Positions 32,333 through 56,409 of a stretch of DNA of 64,000 bases are shown piece after piece (within the stretch, counting starts at the first letter, position 1; each line of letters begins with the position of its first letter). The notes beneath the pieces are model-generated. The model saw only the letters and a list, made by a program, of their open reading frames with translations, made no database searches and had not been told where the DNA came from. Source of the stretch: Opitutales bacterium (GTDB lineage: Bacteria; Verrucomicrobiota; Verrucomicrobiia; Opitutales; JABSRG01); the NCBI GenBank assembly GCA_028280845.1, contig JANQKZ010000024.1, positions 1 through 64,000 on the forward strand, written 5' to 3'. A program made the position numbers and the translations under genes.

Positions 32333-32708
32333 TCACTCCGTGATTTTGCGAATCTCTCGCCACTCCCCACGGTATTCCTCCTTCAGGATTCGAAGGGCCT
32401 CCGCCGAAAGTTCCGATTCGATCGTCTGCACATCCTCTCGGGTAAAATCCCGGCGATCACCAGAGACTCCAGGCTGGAGGTGAGAGGCTGGAGGCTCCGG
32501 CATTCCATCTTCCGTCGGGAGCAAATCCGCCGGCATCTCCGGCATTTCGTCACTTACACTTAAACGTTCGACCTGGTCTTCTGATTTCTGACTTGCGACT
32601 TCCGATCTCCGATCTCCCGCATCCCGCATCCCCGGCTCTTCTCGCCTCTGGCTTCCGGGATCTGGGGGCTCGCTGCCGGCTTCAGCCGGCAGACTCAGTT
32701 TTTTTTTT
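32333..32708 (-). CDS. dnaX: Predicted -1 frame extension of dnaX (tau tail)
   Basis: In the -1 frame relative to dnaX, the reading frame runs without a stop from the A10 run (32699-32708) to the stop at 32333. This adds 121 residues after K377 to give a protein of about 498 residues. The tail begins [12 protein letters not shown], has a low-complexity basic/acidic section (part of it encoded by a heptamer repeat array) and ends in a helical segment (about 30 residues, [20 protein letters not shown] onward). On its own it has a possible ATG (32629) but no recognisable family. The position, the slippery run and the hairpin argue it is the C-terminal domain of the long DnaX product. Confidence 0.7.
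32578..32633. repeat. Eight-unit degenerate heptamer array
   Basis: Perfectly phased heptamers CTTCTGA, TTTCTGA, CTTGCGA, CTTCCGA, TCTCCGA, TCTCCCG, CATCCCG and CATCCCC. The series drifts from TTTCTGA to CATCCCG. It lies within the predicted dnaX frameshift extension, where on the minus strand it reads [17 protein letters not shown]. Confidence 0.9.
32673..32708 (-). promoter_or_regulatory. dnaX frameshift/slippage signal: A10 run and hairpin
   Basis: On the coding (minus) strand ten adenines (32708-32699) end the dnaX zero frame as GAA AAA AAA AAC TGA. Six bases later CTGCCGGC pairs with GCCGGCAG around a TGAA loop (32692 to 32673), a perfect 8-bp stem. A homopolymer plus downstream stem is the arrangement known to drive ribosomal -1 shifting (E. 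coli dnaX) or transcript slippage (Thermus dnaX). Confidence 0.8.
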
Positions 32709-48334: not shown

Positions 48335-48811
48335 AAACTACGAAGTTCGCAAAAAAACACGAAATGAATGGATGAGGGTTATTCGACATTTACGAAGCGC
48401 TCATACTGGAGCTTGGGAAAACTGCCAAAATTGACCAGGAGCCCAAGTTTCTTCTTTGTGGCCTTGAGGTAGTTAAGAACCTGGGCTCGATGCTCATCCG
48501 CAAGATCCTTTACGGCCTTTAATTCGAGGATGACTTCATCAAAAGCGATGAGGTCAGGTTCATATTTCTGGCTCAATGGCTTCCCCTTATAAGTGAGATC
48601 TAGTTTGGGCTTTCGGACAAAGGGTACTTTCTGAAATTCAAATTCTATTTCCATGCATTCCTGATAAACTGACTCCAGGAATCCGTTCCCTTTTTCTTTG
48701 TACACCTCAAAACAACATCCCATAATCAAATAAGACTCTTCTTTGAAAACGATTTTTCCGCCTTCCATTTCGCCCCTCCTTTTTCGCGTCCTTTCGCGCC
48801 TTTCGTAGTTT
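48335..48811. repeat. Inverted repeats flanking the GxxExxY gene
   Basis: AAACTACGAA (48335-48344) and TTCGTAGTTT (48802-48811) are perfect 10-bp inverted repeats on either side of the GxxExxY gene. The left copy starts 2 bp after the ogg stop codon. Next to the right copy TTTCGCG occurs twice in a short direct repeat (about 48782-48801). Confidence 0.7.
48379..48768 (-). CDS. GxxExxY family protein
   Basis: 129 residues, standard size. The name motif is GNGFLESVY. A PD-(D/E)XK-like core follows: YEPDLIAFDEVILELKAV, with D, E and K spaced as in restriction-like nucleases. These proteins occur as single genes, often in multiple copies per genome and inside intergenic or rRNA regions, and behave like small mobile cassettes. 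Function unknown. AT-richer than neighbours and flanked by short inverted repeats. Confidence 0.9.
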   Translation of the reverse strand: MEGGKIVFKEESYLIMGCCFEVYKEKGNGFLESVYQECMEIEFEFQKVPFVRKPKLDLTYKGKPLSQKYEPDLIAFDEVILELKAVKDLADEHRAQVLNYLKATKKKLGLLVNFGSFPKLQYERFVNVE

Positions 48812-48819
48812 AAAAAAAA

Positions 48820-49815
48820 TCAAGAATCCCGCTGGAACTCCCTATACTGCCCGTCGTTCTTCCGGATGAACTGCTTCATCGCGGTGGCATCCTCCGGATC
48901 CACCCCGAAACCCACGAAATGAATCTCCGTCGGGCGAGCGAGCTCCCGCTGCAAACGACGGACATCCCGGGCTAAATCATCCCAAGGCACATCTTCGCCC
49001 TGGCCATTCGGGACGCTCCGTTGATAAGAGGCATCAGACAGTAGGAACAGCACATCCGGGCCCATCTCGAAAGCTTTCGTCAATACCGCCTGGATTCCGT
49101 CCGGATCGTCCCGAACCCAACTGCGGCCCGCTTTCTGGAACCGCTCATTCATCCACTGGACGGCCTCTTCCTTATTCCCGGGGGTGGCCGGGATCATTCC
49201 AGGTTTAAAGGTATCGTAAGTCCGACTGTGCTGAATGATACCAAACATCGTCCCACCGCTCAGACCATTAATCATTTCAATGGTCTTATCCCGGATCTCA
49301 GTCATCGAGAACCCCGCCCGCTTCATTGCATTCACCACTGAACCGGATACATCCAACACAATCAGGATGCGCTCCCCCTTTGACTCTACTCCAAGAAAGT
49401 TCACTGCGCTCTGGCCAAAGCCGATCCCCCCGCTTCCAAGACCTGAACCAAACCCGGTTCCAATAGCCGACCCAAGTCCAACAGAAACCTCAGCGGTAAA
49501 CTCCGGCAGCGCCACATCAATCTGAGGTGTATTGATCTGACTGATACTTTTTACGCTAATCCGCGGCTGCCGCGGTCGTGAGCTGTTTTTCTGAAGATCC
49601 TTACTCCTCGCTTTATATTCCAGTTTTTGGGGCTCAATACTCTCCAGGGGTGGAGGAGGCTCAAACTCCGGCTCAGGGGGCTGGATAAATTTATATATCG
49701 TCAGAGACCCGAAGATCACCAACGCCGCCACATGTAAAGCCGCACTGATCCCTACGACCTGCGCCATGACTGCATTCTTCTTGTTTTTACCGGTAAATAT
49801 TGCTTTCAAATCCAT
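48820..49815 (-). CDS. TonB-like N-terminus fused to a VWA domain
   Basis: 331 residues. A short basic cytoplasmic start precedes one membrane segment (about 18-40; ISAALHVAALVIFGSLTIYK), then a Pro/Glu-rich section (about 45-65; PPEPEFEPPPPLESIEP) as in TonB. Next come a Gly-rich linker (about 112-136) and a VWA domain (about 147-325) with MIDAS D155-V-S157-G-S159, GGTMFG and LSDAS. There is no TonB C-terminal domain. It is the last gene after ExbB-ExbD-ExbD, in the position of tonB, so it probably takes energy from the Exb motor to work on a periplasmic or outer-membrane partner. This is inference. Confidence 0.75.
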   Translation of the reverse strand: MDLKAIFTGKNKKNAVMAQVVGISAALHVAALVIFGSLTIYKFIQPPEPEFEPPPPLESIEPQKLEYKARSKDLQKNSSRPRQPRISVKSISQINTPQIDVALPEFTAEVSVGLGSAIGTGFGSGLGSGGIGFGQSAVNFLGVESKGERILIVLDVSGSVVNAMKRAGFSMTEIRDKTIEMINGLSGGTMFGIIQHSRTYDTFKPGMIPATPGNKEEAVQWMNERFQKAGRSWVRDDPDGIQAVLTKAFEMGPDVLFLLSDASYQRSVPNGQGEDVPWDDLARDVRRLQRELARPTEIHFVGFGVDPEDATAMKQFIRKNDGQYREFQRDS

Positions 49816-49866
49816 ATTATTTGAGCGGTAAGGGACTGAAGGATTTGCCCTTGGTATGTGACCTAT

Positions 49867-50084
49867 GCTCAGGGTGAGGACGGCGGCAAGATGTGTAGCT
49901 TGACGACTGAAAAGAGAGGGCGCGCACTAAGATGTGCGTAACCGAGCTTGAAAGGAGGAATACTGCGCATGTTGCCCCGAGGATGGGAGTGTGATCCCTA
50001 CCTTTGGTAAGTTTATTGATTATTCTACTGATTGAAAAACGCATAAAAACATCCTCACACTCCCATCCGTTCTTCACCCTGAGC
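49867..50084. repeat. Nested inverted repeat between exbD and the VWA gene
   Basis: Outer arms GCTCAGGGTGA (49867-49877) and TCACCCTGAGC (50074-50084) and inner arms GGATGGGAGTGTGA (49981-49994) and TCACACTCCCATCC (50055-50068) are all perfect inverted repeats. The right outer arm overlaps the exbD stop region. The 256-bp gap carries no gene I can support. Confidence 0.75.
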
Positions 50085-50517
50085 CTTGGCCAAAGCTTAC
50101 GATTTTTAACCCCGCAGCCGCGCAGGCGTTCAGGACATCAATTGATTTTTGATGGAGGGAATCATCATCTGCCTGAATGGTGATGATCGTCTCGATATTC
50201 ATCCGCTTATCCGCCATCCCCAGGCGGGTTAGGGTCCGGGTCAATTGCGGCATGTCCCGGCTTTCAGGGGTATCAACGGGAGCTCCATTCAATAGAACCT
50301 GCCCATCTCCCAGGATATCGATAATATGCTCACTCGGCATATTGGTCGGATTCTTTGCCGGTGGAGTATCGGAGGGTAAAGTAAGGCTGATATCCGACTC
50401 CTCCTGTACAATCGTTGTCGTTACCATGAAATAGACCAGCAAGAGGAAGACGACATCGATCATCGGCGTTAAATCGACTTTATCTTCAGTTTGAAAAACT
50501 TTGGGTAATCTAGCCAT
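50074..50517 (-). CDS. exbD: ExbD/TolR-family protein (second copy)
   Basis: 147 residues from the ATG at 50517, which gives the normal MARLPKVFQTEDKVDLTPMI start; longer upstream readings run into a repeat. One membrane segment (about 22-40) with the proton-conducting Asp in DLTPMIDVVFLLLVYFMV. The periplasmic part (about 45-147) has the TolR/ExbD fold pattern (IIDILGDGQVLLNG). Forms the proton channel with ExbB. Confidence 0.9.
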   Translation of the reverse strand: MARLPKVFQTEDKVDLTPMIDVVFLLLVYFMVTTTIVQEESDISLTLPSDTPPAKNPTNMPSEHIIDILGDGQVLLNGAPVDTPESRDMPQLTRTLTRLGMADKRMNIETIITIQADDDSLHQKSIDVLNACAAAGLKIVSFGQGSG

Positions 50518-50519
50518 GG

Positions 50520-50703
50520 CAGTGGTGACCTGTGAATGTGCTCTGTGAGATCGGAACAGTCCGAAGACCTGGAAGCATAACCCCCAATCCACATTCACAA
50601 TGCACACGCTCCCTCCATAAAACCTTCGTCCGGAGTGAGGGCACCCCGGGTCCAGTAGTTGTCAAATTTTCTTCCCTAGACATCAGACACAAGACACCCG
50701 ACC
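50520..50703. repeat. TGTGA-type inverted repeat and heptamer array between exbD genes
   Basis: TGTGAATGTG (50531-50540) pairs perfectly with CACATTCACA (50590-50599). Heptamers AGACATC, AGACACA and AGACACC lie at 50678-50698, just after the stop of the upstream exbD. Confidence 0.8.
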
Positions 50704-50706
50704 CTT

Positions 50707-51111
50707 TTAGCTTTGATAAACGGAAAAAATCACATCGAAGGCTCCATTCTCAGCACAGACGCGCATGACCTCCCTCACATGTTTGTGCGGAGTATTCGTA
50801 TCTACCCGCAGGTTAACCTTGTAGCCACGGACCGTTTCCATGCCATTTCGGATGATGGGCCCGAGAGCCTCAGGGCCGTCCATCCGCCGAATGCCGGCAT
50901 AAACCGAACCGTCGGGAAGAATTGTGATGACTTCCCGACGACCCGCATCCTCAGGGACCTTGGACTGATCCGCAACCGGCATTTCAATGTCGATTTTTTC
51001 TGCCGTCAGCAGGGTCGCCACCGTCATGAAAAAGACGATCAGCAGAAACACCACATCGATCATCGGAGTCAAATCCGGGCTGTCGTTACTGTCATCAGGT
51101 TGCCAGGCCAT
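50707..51111 (-). CDS. exbD: ExbD/TolR-family protein (first copy)
   Basis: 134 residues. Membrane segment about 17-36 with DLTPMIDVVFLLIVFFM, including the conserved Asp; periplasmic fold with VITILPDGSVYAG and a C-terminal VRVCAENGAFDVIF. Two ExbD paralogues next to one ExbB is a common arrangement; they probably form a mixed dimer in the motor. Confidence 0.93.
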   Translation of the reverse strand: MAWQPDDSNDSPDLTPMIDVVFLLIVFFMTVATLLTAEKIDIEMPVADQSKVPEDAGRREVITILPDGSVYAGIRRMDGPEALGPIIRNGMETVRGYKVNLRVDTNTPHKHVREVMRVCAENGAFDVIFSVYQS

Positions 51112-51120
51112 GGTTATTCA

Positions 51121-51215
51121 CGAGCTGTGAGTGTGTATTGTGAGCTGGGAATGGGATGCCCGAAGCGACGAGAAGCCCCCCATCTCACAATCACAATTCG
51201 CACTATACATTTTCA
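51121..51215. repeat. TGTGA-type inverted repeat between exbB and exbD
   Basis: ATTGTGAG (51137-51144) and CTCACAAT (51184-51191) form the core of imperfect arms spanning about 51122-51150 and 51180-51210. Confidence 0.75.
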
Positions 51216-51229
51216 CTCTCACTCCTCGG

Positions 51230-51985
51230 CTAAGCGCTCTTGCGGGCAGAGGAAATCATGTTAAAGAAGAGGTCGCCCACAAGCTTACCGACCTGGGCTG
51301 CGATCTTCCCGTATTTCGCTTTGAAATAAAAATAGGCAATGAGCGAGGGGATGGCGACGACCAGACCCGAGGCCGTGGTGACCAGGGCTTCCGAAATATT
51401 AGTGGCCAGGACCGAAGGATCGCCCATCCCCACATCGGATATCGCGCGGAAGGCCTTCACCATGCCTGAAACGGTCCCCAGGAGCCCGACCATAGGGGCC
51501 ACGGCGCCGATGACCGAGAGGTAATTGATCAGGACAAAGGGCCCGGATAGTTCGGCGGCAGAGGCCTCATCAATGGCTTTATCCACCACCGTCATTTCAA
51601 TGTGCCCCTCATCAATTCGGCTCAAGCCAGCCGCCACAATGTTCGTAACCGGAGCGGGGTTATCCGCGCACAGTTGTTGGGCCCGCTCAATATCCAGACT
51701 GTTCATCGCTTCTGCCAACGGATCGGTAAGGTCGGTCCGCAGGAATGGCTGGGGACGAATGGTAAGACCGTTATAAATCGCGAGCCCTACACCAGCGACT
51801 GAGAAGAGCCCCAGGGGCCACATGGCCCATCCTCCCTGTTTCAACAGACCAATGAAATTGGTGTTTCCCCCTCCGGTATCAGCGGCGGCCTCAGTCACCT
51901 CCTCGGCAAACCCAGCTGAGGAGAAACACGTGAAAATCCCAACCCCAAACAGGATGGAAACGATAGGATTTAGTCGAATTTTCAT
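51230..51985 (-). CDS. exbB: ExbB/TolQ/MotA-family proton channel protein
   Basis: 251 residues. A cleavable-looking N-terminal hydrophobic segment (about 8-27) precedes the usual three ExbB segments: GGWAMWPLGLFSVAGVGLAIY (about 50-70), INYLSVIGAVAPMVGLLGTV (about 150-170) and ALVTTASGLVVAIPSLIAYF (about 199-219). The TM2-TM3 pore pattern GLLGTVSGMVKAF and the conserved Thr in ALVTTASGL are present. With two ExbD proteins it forms the inner-membrane proton-driven motor. Confidence 0.94.
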   Translation of the reverse strand: MKIRLNPIVSILFGVGIFTCFSSAGFAEEVTEAAADTGGGNTNFIGLLKQGGWAMWPLGLFSVAGVGLAIYNGLTIRPQPFLRTDLTDPLAEAMNSLDIERAQQLCADNPAPVTNIVAAGLSRIDEGHIEMTVVDKAIDEASAAELSGPFVLINYLSVIGAVAPMVGLLGTVSGMVKAFRAISDVGMGDPSVLATNISEALVTTASGLVVAIPSLIAYFYFKAKYGKIAAQVGKLVGDLFFNMISSARKSA

Positions 51986-52060
51986 AGACGGATTGGATCA
52001 AAGGGGTTCGAGAGGTAGGTTCGTAATACGAAGAAAAATGGTGGGGATATTGGGCCTGGG

Positions 52061-53377
52061 TTATTCTGCCGCATTCTGCTCACGCATTCCGCTTTCTGAC
52101 TTCTGACCTCCGATTTCCGAATCTAAGGCCTCCAGACGTTCACGGCCCTGATCCGCCCAGGGATTAGAAGGAAAAAACAGGATTAGCTGGTCATATACGG
52201 TTCGGGCCGTTTCCGGGTTCCCCAGCGATTCATAACAAAGACCATTGGTGTACAAGAGTTCGGGGATCCACGCATACCCGATCCGGGAAAAGATCACCCC
52301 CTGGCTGACCTGCTCCATCGCTTCATGGAAGTCTTCATCCAGGAGACCAATTCGCGCGAGGACCAGCTGACGCAAGGAAAAGTCCGGATCGCGAGATTCC
52401 AATTCCCCGGCTTCCTCCAGGAAAAGCCTGGCCGATTCCACCCGGTTCAGGCGAACATTACAGTAGGCAGTCCAGAGGATGGCTTTCGTGCAGTAGGGGT
52501 TACCCGACAGAGAACGGATACGATCATAAAGGATCAAAGCTTCATCCAAATTCCCGGCACTTCTTAATTGTCCGGCATATTGCATGAGCAGGTTGTGTAG
52601 CTCCAGATCATCGTTCGTTAAGGGGACAATTCCCAGCAACGCTAAGGCTCGGGTATGACTTCCTGCCTCCACGAGCCTCTCCGAAAGATTCAGCGTATGT
52701 TGAACGTAGTTAGGGGTCACGCGTGTGAGGGGGATTTCCAGAACCATGGCGTAGGCCTCATCGAAATGACCCGCCTCAATGAGACCTCCCAGGTATTCGT
52801 CGACTAGCGGGTGAATATTGAAATGCTCCTCGGGAACCGGAAGATACTTCACCAGGGGCCACACATAAGGACGCATGAGGTCCAGCACCTCAGCCTCCGG
52901 GCCATCCTGGCGAAGCGCGTTCCGGGCCTCCATGAGCTCCTCCGGAATGGCGAATTCGAGGATAAACTCCTGTATATCATTCAGAGGAATAAACACCCGT
53001 TCGTTCACGCTCTGCGTATCAGCCAGCCGTAATTCCAACTCTGCTCCCTGAACCCCCAGCAGGAAAGACTCACTCGTCCGCCCCCCCGAGGATACCAAAA
53101 TTGGAATCTCCTTTTGCCCCCACAGGGTGTCCCAGTCCTGATTGGGCGACACAGATTCCCGGGCAACCCCAGGGAAGCTCGTGGACACAAGAATGAGAAC
53201 AGACAGCAGGTAGGGCGCGACGCTCCTGTCGCGCCGCAAAACAGGTTTCAAGCGCATCCCATGCCGCCCGCTATCAAGGTTCAAAAATTTACCAGCGGAT
53301 CTGCCAAAGCTACTCACCCTTGTAGCGGTGCCGTCTCGCCGCGCCCAATTTGAAAAGAACTGTATCCACTTGATCAT
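52061..53377 (-). CDS. Exported TPR-repeat protein of the Exb operon
   Basis: 438 residues from the ATG overlapping the previous stop (TAATG); a later ATG at about 53258 (MRLKPVLRR) gives a cleaner signal peptide (VAPYLLSVLILVSTSFPGVA). The mature part has helical repeats (about 150-410; ALLGIVPLTNDDLELHNLLMQY, AGNLDEALILYDRI, SLGNPETARTVYDQLILFFP), the last being a good TPR. Two repeat hairpins are read inside the N-terminal region (RRDGTATR and RRDRSVAPY), and a heptamer array encodes the tail SEIGGQKSESGMR. It probably works in the periplasm with the VWA/Exb complex. Confidence 0.7.
   Translation of the reverse strand: MIKWIQFFSNWARRDGTATRVSSFGRSAGKFLNLDSGRHGMRLKPVLRRDRSVAPYLLSVLILVSTSFPGVARESVSPNQDWDTLWGQKEIPILVSSGGRTSESFLLGVQGAELELRLADTQSVNERVFIPLNDIQEFILEFAIPEELMEARNALRQDGPEAEVLDLMRPYVWPLVKYLPVPEEHFNIHPLVDEYLGGLIEAGHFDEAYAMVLEIPLTRVTPNYVQHTLNLSERLVEAGSHTRALALLGIVPLTNDDLELHNLLMQYAGQLRSAGNLDEALILYDRIRSLSGNPYCTKAILWTAYCNVRLNRVESARLFLEEAGELESRDPDFSLRQLVLARIGLLDEDFHEAMEQVSQGVIFSRIGYAWIPELLYTNGLCYESLGNPETARTVYDQLILFFPSNPWADQGRERLEALDSEIGGQKSESGMREQNAAE
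52085..52120. repeat. Heptamer array at the 3' end of the TPR gene
   Basis: CATTCCG, then after one base TTTCTGA, CTTCTGA, CCTCCGA and TTTCCGA (52093-52120). The array is translated in the C-terminal tail of the TPR protein. Confidence 0.85.
53211..53341. repeat. Two GTAG-headed hairpins inside the TPR gene's 5' end
   Basis: GTAGGGC head near 53211 with GGCGCGAC (53214-53221) paired to GTCGCGCC (53228-53235). A second unit TGTAGCGGTG...CGCCGC (about 53315-53341) has the same build. Both lie within the predicted coding region. Confidence 0.65.
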
Positions 53378-56300
53378 TACATCAACGAGCTATGCAGTTG
53401 CTCCAATTCTCCATAGACCTGGGTTTCCTCGTAGCCCGGAGTATTCAGGGCTTCCTTCAAGGTATTCTCCGCATCGGCCCGGGCCCCCAGGCGAAGCAAG
53501 GTTTCGGCATCCCGGAGGTAAGCCTTGGCCGCCCACTCCCGATACTGGGCAAAAGCCAGAAAGGTGCGCTCAAAATAGCCGTGCGCTTCGGAATACAGGT
53601 CCCGGCGAAAAAAACACATACCGATTTTATATTGCGCCTCCGCCCAGGATTCCCCCCGCCACGACCGCGTCCTTAAAATCTTTTCGTAGCGTCCGATCGC
53701 CTCCTCATAGCGCCCAGCCTCCATGAGGACATCCCCCTGTCGCATGGCTGCCCGCACGGCTTCGGATCTTGCAGGAAAACGCTCCTGGGCTTGATTGAAA
53801 TGCTGGAACGCCATCTCGAAATTGCCCTCCTGAGCTTCAATTTCTCCAGCCGTCATCAATGCCTGGAGGACAGCTTCTTCCGCATCGCTGTACTCCTCGA
53901 TTACCTGGTTCAGGGATTTCCGCACCAGCGGCTTAAGAGCAATATTGTCGTACGACGCTAAACGATCTGCAATCCAGACCAGGGTGCGTGGACTGGCCAG
54001 CTCTATATCCTTTTCCGTGAAGAGCTCAGTCGGATTGACCGGGTCTCCCAGTGAATCCAGCACCATATGAAGGCGAAGGGCCAGAGTCCTCCGCCCCTCT
54101 GCCTCCGCGGCGGCATAAGCTGCTTTGTAGGCTGCCGCCGGGGTCTTTACCGGCAGCAAATTCAACTGCGCGGTAACACGATCACGGTACTCCTCTAGCG
54201 CGGCCAAATCCGTCGCGACCTGGGCACGGAAATCTTCGTCCCGGAGCAGCAATTCCTGCAAATCATTATCAATGGCAGGGTGATCGCCAAAGTAATCATA
54301 AAGGACCCGCCGATCCCCCATCAGCTCTGCCCGGAATGCTTCATCTCGAATGAAAGCATCGAGGAAGGCAATCGTCACATCATAGCGTGTCTTGAATTCG
54401 GAATACTTTTCAGGATAAGCAAACAGGATTTGATCAATCCCATAAGCCGTCGGAATGTCCCCGTAGTTGACAACGGCATCGTAATAGGCCTCCAGCATTT
54501 GGGCAGGATTCCCCATCAACTCAAAGGCACGCCCCTGCTCAAAAATGGCGGCGGTCAGTTGCCCCTTTTCGCCATAGGTTTCCTGATACCTTCGGTAGTG
54601 CTTTTCCATCCGGGAGAACCAGCCGTTCGCCTCAAACAGTTTACCCAGTTGAAAAACGGCATGGTTGATGAAACCCATTTCATCAGTGAACTTCGCCACA
54701 TTTTCGTAGTGTTCAATGGCCTTGCGAACACGGGCACCCGCCGAGGCGATATCCCCCAGAAAGACTTCACCTTCGCCACGCAGAATACTCTCGGGATACT
54801 TCTTGGCGAATTCGGCAAAAACCGCCTCCGCCTCGGCGAACCCATCGTCGGCGAACAGGGCGACCCCGATTCGGAATTGGGCATCTTCGTGGTAAGGGCT
54901 TTGCGGATAGCGGTCTTTCACCGCAGAAAACAAATCAATCGCTTCCTCGTAGTCCTCTGTGAACAGCCTACAGAGGCCGCCCCAATAATACGCCCCGTCC
55001 ATCATGGGAGTATCGGGATGATTCTCGATATAAGCCCGGAATTGATCGGCCCCTTCCGCATATTGCTCGAGCTTTAAGTAGGTCGCCCCCATGTAGTAAA
55101 TCAGCTGGGGATTATAGTCATCCGCCGGGTCGCGTTCGATATACCGGATACAGAAGGCCAACAGGCGTTCATATTGCTCGGACCTGAGCAACAAACCGGC
55201 CAGGGTGACCGAGATCTCCCGCCGATACCGTGTCCAGTCCTCCCGGTCCAGATAGAGATTGGCCAGGGCTTCAGCCTTTGGAATCTCATTGAGCAAATCA
55301 GCCTGAACAAAGGCGGCATAGTAATAATCCTCTACCTGGTCCACCCGGTCGGGATAATCCTCAGCCAAACGGTAAAACGCCCAGTAAGCCTCCCAGTTCC
55401 GGTCCGTATTTTTAAAGTTGCTCGCCTTTCGCCATTCTAATTCTGGCGTGTAGCTCTGGACCCCTTCCAAAACCTCCACCTGCTGTTCCGCGTTAATCAG
55501 ATCGACCTCCAGCTCCCCTTTGCGCTCCTGGGCGGATTGGGTATTGGACAGCGCGATGACTCGAAGCTGATTCTCAATGCGCGCCACCCGGCCTGCCCAA
55601 TAGGCCTGCAGTTCATCCGTAGTGAGCGTCATGTAGAACAGAAGAGAGGCCTCCAGGTAGCGCTCTAACTCCGTCAACTTGTCCCCACCCTCAAGTAGTT
55701 TTAAATTAAATCGTACATCATATCGACTCGGACTATCCCCGGTCAGATAGGGCAGCAATGTGGCGATTTGGTCGTATTGACCCGTTTCGATGTAGGCTTC
55801 GGTCAGCGCCGCCGCGGCCAGGGTTTGGCGCTCAGGATCCGGACTCGCCAGGAGCTTGAGAAACCAGGGAACCCCGATCTCCCAGTTACGAATAATATAA
55901 ATCGTTTGGACGAGCTTCTCCAGTGAATCCTGACGCTGCTTCTCCGTGAACCGCATATCCAGCGGAGGGGACAAGGCTACCGTCAAATCAGCCACCGCAC
56001 TTTCCCATTGGGCAAGCCCCCGCTTACAGTCAGCCCGAAAACCCAGCATCAGGTGACGGCGTGCTCCCGAGGGAAACATCGACTCGTAGCGATTAAACAC
56101 CTCCATGGCTCGCTCCAGGTAGGTGACCTCCCGACCCGCGCCGTATTGCTGCATGTACCCCACGCCTAGAAAAACCAGCATGCCTTCGAGCACCTGTCGC
56201 TCCGCATCCGGCGCATGCTCAAAGCGGCGCACCAGCTCCTCAAAATAGGGGATCCCCGCCTCGAACCTGCCTTCGCCAATAAATCCCTCGGCCGCCTCCC

Positions 56301-56409
56301 GCAGCTGACGCGTTCCCATCTGGTGCGAACTCTGGCCCCGGAGCCCGGGACTCACCGCAATGAGGCCGCACCCCACGCCCACAAGCCACATACGCCGAAC
56401 CCAACCCAT
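53377..56409 (-). CDS. Large exported TPR-repeat protein
   Basis: About 1010 residues from the ATG at 56409, which gives a signal peptide (MGWVRRMWLVGVGCGLIAVS). A GTG at 56541 would add 44 unlikely residues. The protein is a chain of TPR-like helices: FEELVRRFEHAPDAERQVLEG, YLKLEQYAEGADQFRAYIE, FTEDYEEAIDLFSAVKDRYP (the TolA-trimeric/BamD-like 'RYPxSPYHEDA' form), FADDGFAEAEAVFAEFAKKYP and AGRYEEAIGRYEKIL. Similar long TPR proteins precede ExbB/ExbD genes in Verrucomicrobia and Planctomycetes as far as I recall. Likely a periplasmic scaffold. The stop overlaps the next start. Confidence 0.78.
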   Translation of the reverse strand: MGWVRRMWLVGVGCGLIAVSPGLRGQSSHQMGTRQLREAAEGFIGEGRFEAGIPYFEELVRRFEHAPDAERQVLEGMLVFLGVGYMQQYGAGREVTYLERAMEVFNRYESMFPSGARRHLMLGFRADCKRGLAQWESAVADLTVALSPPLDMRFTEKQRQDSLEKLVQTIYIIRNWEIGVPWFLKLLASPDPERQTLAAAALTEAYIETGQYDQIATLLPYLTGDSPSRYDVRFNLKLLEGGDKLTELERYLEASLLFYMTLTTDELQAYWAGRVARIENQLRVIALSNTQSAQERKGELEVDLINAEQQVEVLEGVQSYTPELEWRKASNFKNTDRNWEAYWAFYRLAEDYPDRVDQVEDYYYAAFVQADLLNEIPKAEALANLYLDREDWTRYRREISVTLAGLLLRSEQYERLLAFCIRYIERDPADDYNPQLIYYMGATYLKLEQYAEGADQFRAYIENHPDTPMMDGAYYWGGLCRLFTEDYEEAIDLFSAVKDRYPQSPYHEDAQFRIGVALFADDGFAEAEAVFAEFAKKYPESILRGEGEVFLGDIASAGARVRKAIEHYENVAKFTDEMGFINHAVFQLGKLFEANGWFSRMEKHYRRYQETYGEKGQLTAAIFEQGRAFELMGNPAQMLEAYYDAVVNYGDIPTAYGIDQILFAYPEKYSEFKTRYDVTIAFLDAFIRDEAFRAELMGDRRVLYDYFGDHPAIDNDLQELLLRDEDFRAQVATDLAALEEYRDRVTAQLNLLPVKTPAAAYKAAYAAAEAEGRRTLALRLHMVLDSLGDPVNPTELFTEKDIELASPRTLVWIADRLASYDNIALKPLVRKSLNQVIEEYSDAEEAVLQALMTAGEIEAQEGNFEMAFQHFNQAQERFPARSEAVRAAMRQGDVLMEAGRYEEAIGRYEKILRTRSWRGESWAEAQYKIGMCFFRRDLYSEAHGYFERTFLAFAQYREWAAKAYLRDAETLLRLGARADAENTLKEALNTPGYEETQVYGELEQLHSSLM

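Follow-up and report, generated by a model that had tools for sequence, protein, structure and literature searches.

A VWA-headed, TonB-like rod in an Exb motor operon of an Opitutales bacterium, with a head that looks like an exchanged one

The operon and its genes

The window analyzed here (the whole stretch of 64,000 nucleotides, positions 1 to 64,000 of contig JANQKZ010000024.1 in the Opitutales assembly GCA_028280845.1) contains an operon of six genes at 48820-56409, all on the (-) strand, which our open reading frame analysis and profile searches show to be arranged in the order TPR1-TPR2-ExbB-ExbD-ExbD-X. This confirmed the initial annotation, which had listed two TPR proteins, ExbB, two ExbD proteins and a VWA protein in that order. 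The first gene, TPR1 (53377-56409; 1010 aa from ATG), has a signal-peptide-like N-terminus followed by many TPRs with YbgF/CpoB- and BamD-like repeats; it matches Pfam TPR families and, over the cut-off, the NCBIfam YbgF/CpoB repeat model TIGR02795 (104 bits), and its homologues align over nearly the full length at ~30-40% identity. TPR2 (52061-53377; 438 aa as listed; Pfam TPR_19 and others) is conserved as the second gene of the operon in related loci, and a later Met (MRLKPVL..., signal-peptide-like) is a likelier start than the listed one. At the TPR2 end we also observed the sequence CGGAGGTCAGAAGTCAGAA (52094-52112; also 32579-32604), which has two imperfect copies elsewhere in the window, where chance would give 0.01 matches.

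The three motor genes are typical of their families. ExbB (51230-51985; 251 aa) is a proton channel of the ExbB/TolQ/MotA family (PF01618, E=5e-29) in which the pore-helix residues T171 and T203/T204 are invariant in 11 relatives, and both ExbD-a (50707-51111; 134 aa; PF02472, E=6e-21), with the motif TPMIDVVF, and ExbD-b (50074-50517; 147 aa from ATG, in a frame open from 50607; PF02472, E=2e-20) contain the pore Asp. The gap between ExbD-b and X (49859-50092) contains inverted repeats, GGATGGGAGTGTGA, that pair at 14 of 14 bases, together with a second pair of 22 bases at 82%, and these are possible repeat elements within the operon. An open reading frame of 86 aa in this repeat-bearing gap (49817-50077) was rejected as a gene, having no family match and no match in any related operon. 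Directly downstream of X lies a gene of the PD-(D/E)XK nuclease superfamily (48379-48768; PF13366, E=7e-40).

Protein X (48820-49815; 331 aa) consists of a TM helix, a Pro-rich linker and a VWA domain. Its motor-coupling half, i.e., residues 1-148 (49372-49815), contains a single TM helix with S24-x3-H28, the Ser/His spacing of TonB and TolA, then a Pro/Glu linker and a disordered Gly/Ser stretch, and residues 149-331 (48820-49371) form a VWA head of the short type with DVSGS and D261. An AlphaFold model of the single chain places helices at residues 11-44 (the TM helix) and 62-77 (in the Pro/Glu linker), with a linker spanning residues ~45-131, pLDDT below 50 at 85-131 and pLDDT above 90 over most of 140-330. 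By sequence the VWA assignment is weak (PF00092, E=0.005, below the cut-off), but by fold it is clear, with model residues 132-331 superimposing on the VWA domain of inter-alpha-inhibitor heavy chain 1 (ITIH1) at Z=16.9 and an rmsd of 2.5 A over 159 residues. The TonB-like N-terminus proposed in the initial annotation is thus borne out by the S24-x3-H28 spacing, and its claim that X lacks a TonB C-terminal domain also holds, since Pfam and NCBIfam profile searches of X gave no match to PF03544. The VWA domain had further been described as having an intact MIDAS; the fold, DVSGS and D261 stand, but the motif-2 Thr position aligns with Asp in a hard-to-align loop (DDP-DGIQ in the window versus GGTRLD in the related loci L064 and L065). 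With DxSxS and D261 kept and the motif-2 Thr apparently lost, the head of X may bind a ligand in a metal-dependent manner.

The genome around the window contains 11 MotA_ExbB, 21 TonB_C and 47 Plug matches, with none of the 21 TonB_C matches located on this contig. Loss of the ordinary Ton system is ruled out by this abundance of Ton genes, and because the genome has so many ordinary Ton parts, the VWA-linked motor is an extra one. A PADLOC search for anti-phage motor systems (such as Zorya) gave no match for ExbB, ExbD or X, and only a generic TPR match for TPR2.

Distribution of the operon and comparison with known systems

Our search for VWA proteins located beside exbB and exbD together with both TPR families, a check proposed with the initial annotation, demonstrated that the six-gene order recurs across genera. 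Ten loci of our first sample contain all six genes in the same order, as do many of the 80 loci from named genomes, a scan that was run with ExbB, the VWA family having no conserved stretches for an alignment-based scan. Since the order TPR1-TPR2-ExbB-ExbDa-ExbDb-X is found in dozens of Verrucomicrobiota from many genera, the operon is not a chance arrangement. The ordered operon is present in Opitutales/Puniceicoccales and elsewhere in Verrucomicrobiota, a Coraliomargarita isolate among them; Coraliomargarita sp. SDUM461004 is a culturable bacterium in which it is complete. Looser relatives occur in Lentisphaerae and Kiritimatiellia, and the named-genome scan identified the same operon in Pontiellaceae (Kiritimatiellales). 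Of 273 genomes from the window's order, 143 contain a match to X and 174 contain one to TPR1, weak TPR matches being possibly unspecific. No relatives were found on viral contigs. The first five genes are more constant than X: several loci, including those of three Cerasicoccus species, contain TPR1-TPR2-ExbB-ExbDa-ExbDb with no adjoining X, and we observed a sub-family of such loci without X downstream (L242, L245, L249, L251, L252 and L253).

The initial annotation had proposed a proton-driven Exb motor acting through a VWA-headed, TonB-like rod in place of a TonB C-terminal domain. Our analysis supports this as the best reading of the locus, and the core system is already published, in one 2025 comparative paper ("Origin and Evolution of Bacterial Periplasmic Force Transducers," Mol Biol Evol 2025, msaf138; PMC12204202) that describes "vWA force transducers" in PVC bacteria. 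In the Tichowtungia type (PMC12204202, Fig. 4a,b), the TM helix carries an SHLS motif and is joined by a Pro-rich linker to a vWA domain; TPR and tolQ-like genes and a pair of tolR-like genes lie upstream of the transducer gene, and for other members docking on the motor through the conserved His was modelled. X resembles them in its Ser/His TM helix, its Pro-rich, disordered linker of about 100 residues and its VWA C-terminal domain in place of that of TonB or TolA, and the locus resembles theirs in the TPR, tolQ-like and paired, unlike tolR-like genes upstream, whereas the text of that paper gives one TPR gene and the window contains two. The operon in Pontiellaceae ties our set to the Tichowtungia family by synteny and profile score. 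The TPH-vWA pairs with tolQ only (PMC12204202, Fig. 4c,d) are similar in that a TolQ-like pentamer energises VWA heads, but there the VWA protein replaces ExbD in the pore and has a conserved Asp, whereas the window encodes two ExbD proteins and an X with a side-docking motif. The text of PMC12204202 does not treat subtypes of the head, loss of the MIDAS, the exchange of heads or stand-alone relatives in which Gln replaces the His, for all of which we find evidence here; our additions are the apparent head swap, the His/Gln contrast and a MIDAS survey in which most long heads lack the MIDAS.

Three kinds of X and the origin of the window's head

The relatives of X are of three kinds. Long-head proteins (about 425-500 aa) are mostly motor-linked and have the VWA fold (Z=17.0 to ITIH1) with a ~100-residue helical insertion before the last strands; the complete DxSxS/Asp set is absent in 30 of 37. 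Other orders of the class and phylum have short-head proteins that bear the TonB-type His and are motor-linked, and such operons in the class rule out that the combination of short head and His occurs in the window only. Stand-alone short-head proteins, found in the window's order, have neighbours that include no conserved motor genes and contain Gln at the His position, the exceptions being two divergent proteins (L061 and L062) with Leu or Ala.

The two halves of the window's X match different kinds. Against long-head transducers, residues 1-60 and 61-145 reach 46 and 67 bits, compared with at most 5 and 16 bits against stand-alone VWAs; for residues 146-225 and 226-331 the preference is reversed, with 84 and 96 bits against stand-alone VWAs and at most 33 and 6 bits against long heads. 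In a 15-residue scan, all blocks up to residue 150 favor the long-head proteins and every full block beyond favors the stand-alone ones; a single clean breakpoint follows residue 148, at the first VWA strand (range 139-155 when the reference rows were resampled). The trees of the two halves are likewise discordant. In the N-half tree, the window groups with the long-head proteins of its order (95/93); its placement with stand-alone and class short-head proteins is rejected (p-AU 0.017), and that with stand-alone VWAs alone is not (p-AU 0.14). In the head tree, it is nested in the stand-alone/short clade (100/99), where its nearest relatives are stand-alone VWAs from the window's order, and its placement with the order's long heads is rejected (p-AU 3e-32). 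The motor tree (ExbB-ExbDa-ExbDb concatenated) places the window inside the order's long-head operons, as sister to the long-head operon of a genome of the same family, G001 (100/99). No second copy of the X family was found in the window's genome.

From these comparisons of sequence, X looks like a head-swap chimera, i.e., a motor-linked N-half of the long-head type joined to a VWA head of the stand-alone family, and the simplest history would be that the head was replaced in the lineage of the window. Under this history, the motor, rod and TPR proteins would be those of the order's long-head operon, and the head would be that of a family of stand-alone, TM-anchored short VWAs. In the class short-head operons, the heads also lie inside the stand-alone head clade and the N-halves outside it, which hints at more than one exchange; with short heads bearing His also found on further motor operons in the class and the phylum, several ancient swaps may have taken place, or the short head may be an older state. 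We consider it unlikely that the short head is ancestral, with long heads and stand-alone VWAs derived from it and the old state kept in the window. Further exb operons of the class and phylum (L162-L166, L171-L174 and L180) do contain short-head X genes with the His, but the motor genes of the window are nested in long-head operons, with the well-supported sister in its own family, its N-half is of the long-head type, its head is closest to those of its own order's stand-alone VWAs, and retention would require repeated parallel origins of the long head. Returning to head exchange, we lean toward a broader reading in which the TonB-like rods of Verrucomicrobiota are holders with interchangeable VWA heads, the pulling half being conserved and the head exchanged between motor-linked and motor-free families, and of which the window would be a clear recombinant. 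Such a swap separates the coupling half of X from its target-recognition half and, if true, would retarget the motor.

Coupling of X to the motor

The TonB-type His is present in every X that adjoins a complete motor trio, and almost all stand-alone relatives have Gln there. In a set of 83 non-redundant X proteins, the His is present in 37 of the 38 with exb genes nearby and absent from 35 of the 45 without them (Fisher p=3e-13, treating as independent proteins that are related). The sole exb-linked X without His lies right behind ExbB alone (L156, 5847-7670); it is a short-head protein whose TM helix lacks the TonB-type His, and represents a different motor-linked variant (family f10). L156 also contains an unbroken relative of an X-type gene in L157 (4904-5950) that lies between ExbB and ExbD-a and is broken into several open reading frames. 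The ten unlinked X proteins with His are all of the long-head type, and six are in genomes that have the same motor elsewhere. In G093 and G128 the His-type X genes are located elsewhere in the genome than the five-gene motor locus. Eight genomes with only Gln-type X have no ExbB above 145 bits to that of the window, and four genomes with His-type X score 250-274 bits. The association of the His with the motor is not strict, since in family f16 the TPR1-TPR2-X locus has Gln although a motor trio exists at a second locus, which also rules out that these exb-less operons lost the motor.

The initial annotation had regarded VWA proteins away from exb genes as evidence against its proposal. Full-length relatives of the head do stand alone in many genomes, but these carry Gln instead of His; since this Gln is at the motor-binding position, the stand-alone proteins form a subfamily of their own, and the contrast speaks for coupling, serving as sequence evidence for side docking of linked X proteins on the motor.

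In the ExbBD-TonB and TolQRA systems, proton flow through ExbB/ExbD drives a motion that a side-docked rod receives through its TM helix. By analogy, ExbB and the two different ExbD proteins would form a proton-driven inner-membrane motor, and the TM helix of X would dock on the outside of ExbB through its TonB-type Ser/His pair, as in TonB and TolA. The Pro-rich rod would bear the VWA head in the periplasm, where a partner, located there or at the outer membrane, would be bound and then pulled or displaced on motor action; that force reaches the head is suggested by X having both docking residues and a rod. The ligand of the head is probably a protein, and synteny makes the two putatively secreted TPR proteins the best candidates for this role or for that of adaptors; the same synteny, with their signal-peptide-like N-termini, is consistent with a periplasmic scaffold. 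We infer pulling by X, its partnership with the TPR proteins and the cellular role as a whole from these parts, and we put at roughly 70% the probability that X is a vWA-type force transducer on the ExbB/ExbD motor whose head was exchanged in this genome.

It is improbable that X is instead an accessory sensor or adhesion protein, co-transcribed with the Exb motor and mechanically uncoupled from it: related VWA proteins exist without a motor and X is missing downstream of some motor operons that include both TPR genes, but this reading does not sit well with the distribution of His and Gln, nor with the several genomes in which an unlinked His-type X is accompanied by the same motor elsewhere. 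A disguised Tol-Pal or Ton system, acting on Pal or on outer-membrane receptors, is very improbable, because although the operon shares its motor type, TM docking motif and Pro-rich rod with ExbBD-TonB, and its ExbB and ExbD (closer to TolQ/TolR profiles) and a TPR partner gene (TPR1, over the YbgF/CpoB cut-off) with TolQRA-Pal and CpoB/YbgF, X has a VWA head in place of a TonB or TolA C-terminal domain, receptor genes, tolB and pal are absent from the operon, and the genome has its own TonB proteins among many separate Ton parts.

For the force transducer reading, the His/Gln contrast and the head swap together make the substrate testable, by comparing the ligands of long, mostly MIDAS-less heads with those of short heads. 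Two further arrangements were observed among the relatives: one cluster (L177, 728-14393) contains tandem X genes and a third X (781 aa) located between two TPR1 genes, and L181 (10229-13241) encodes two X-like proteins whose additional N-terminal domain appears SAM-like by eye.
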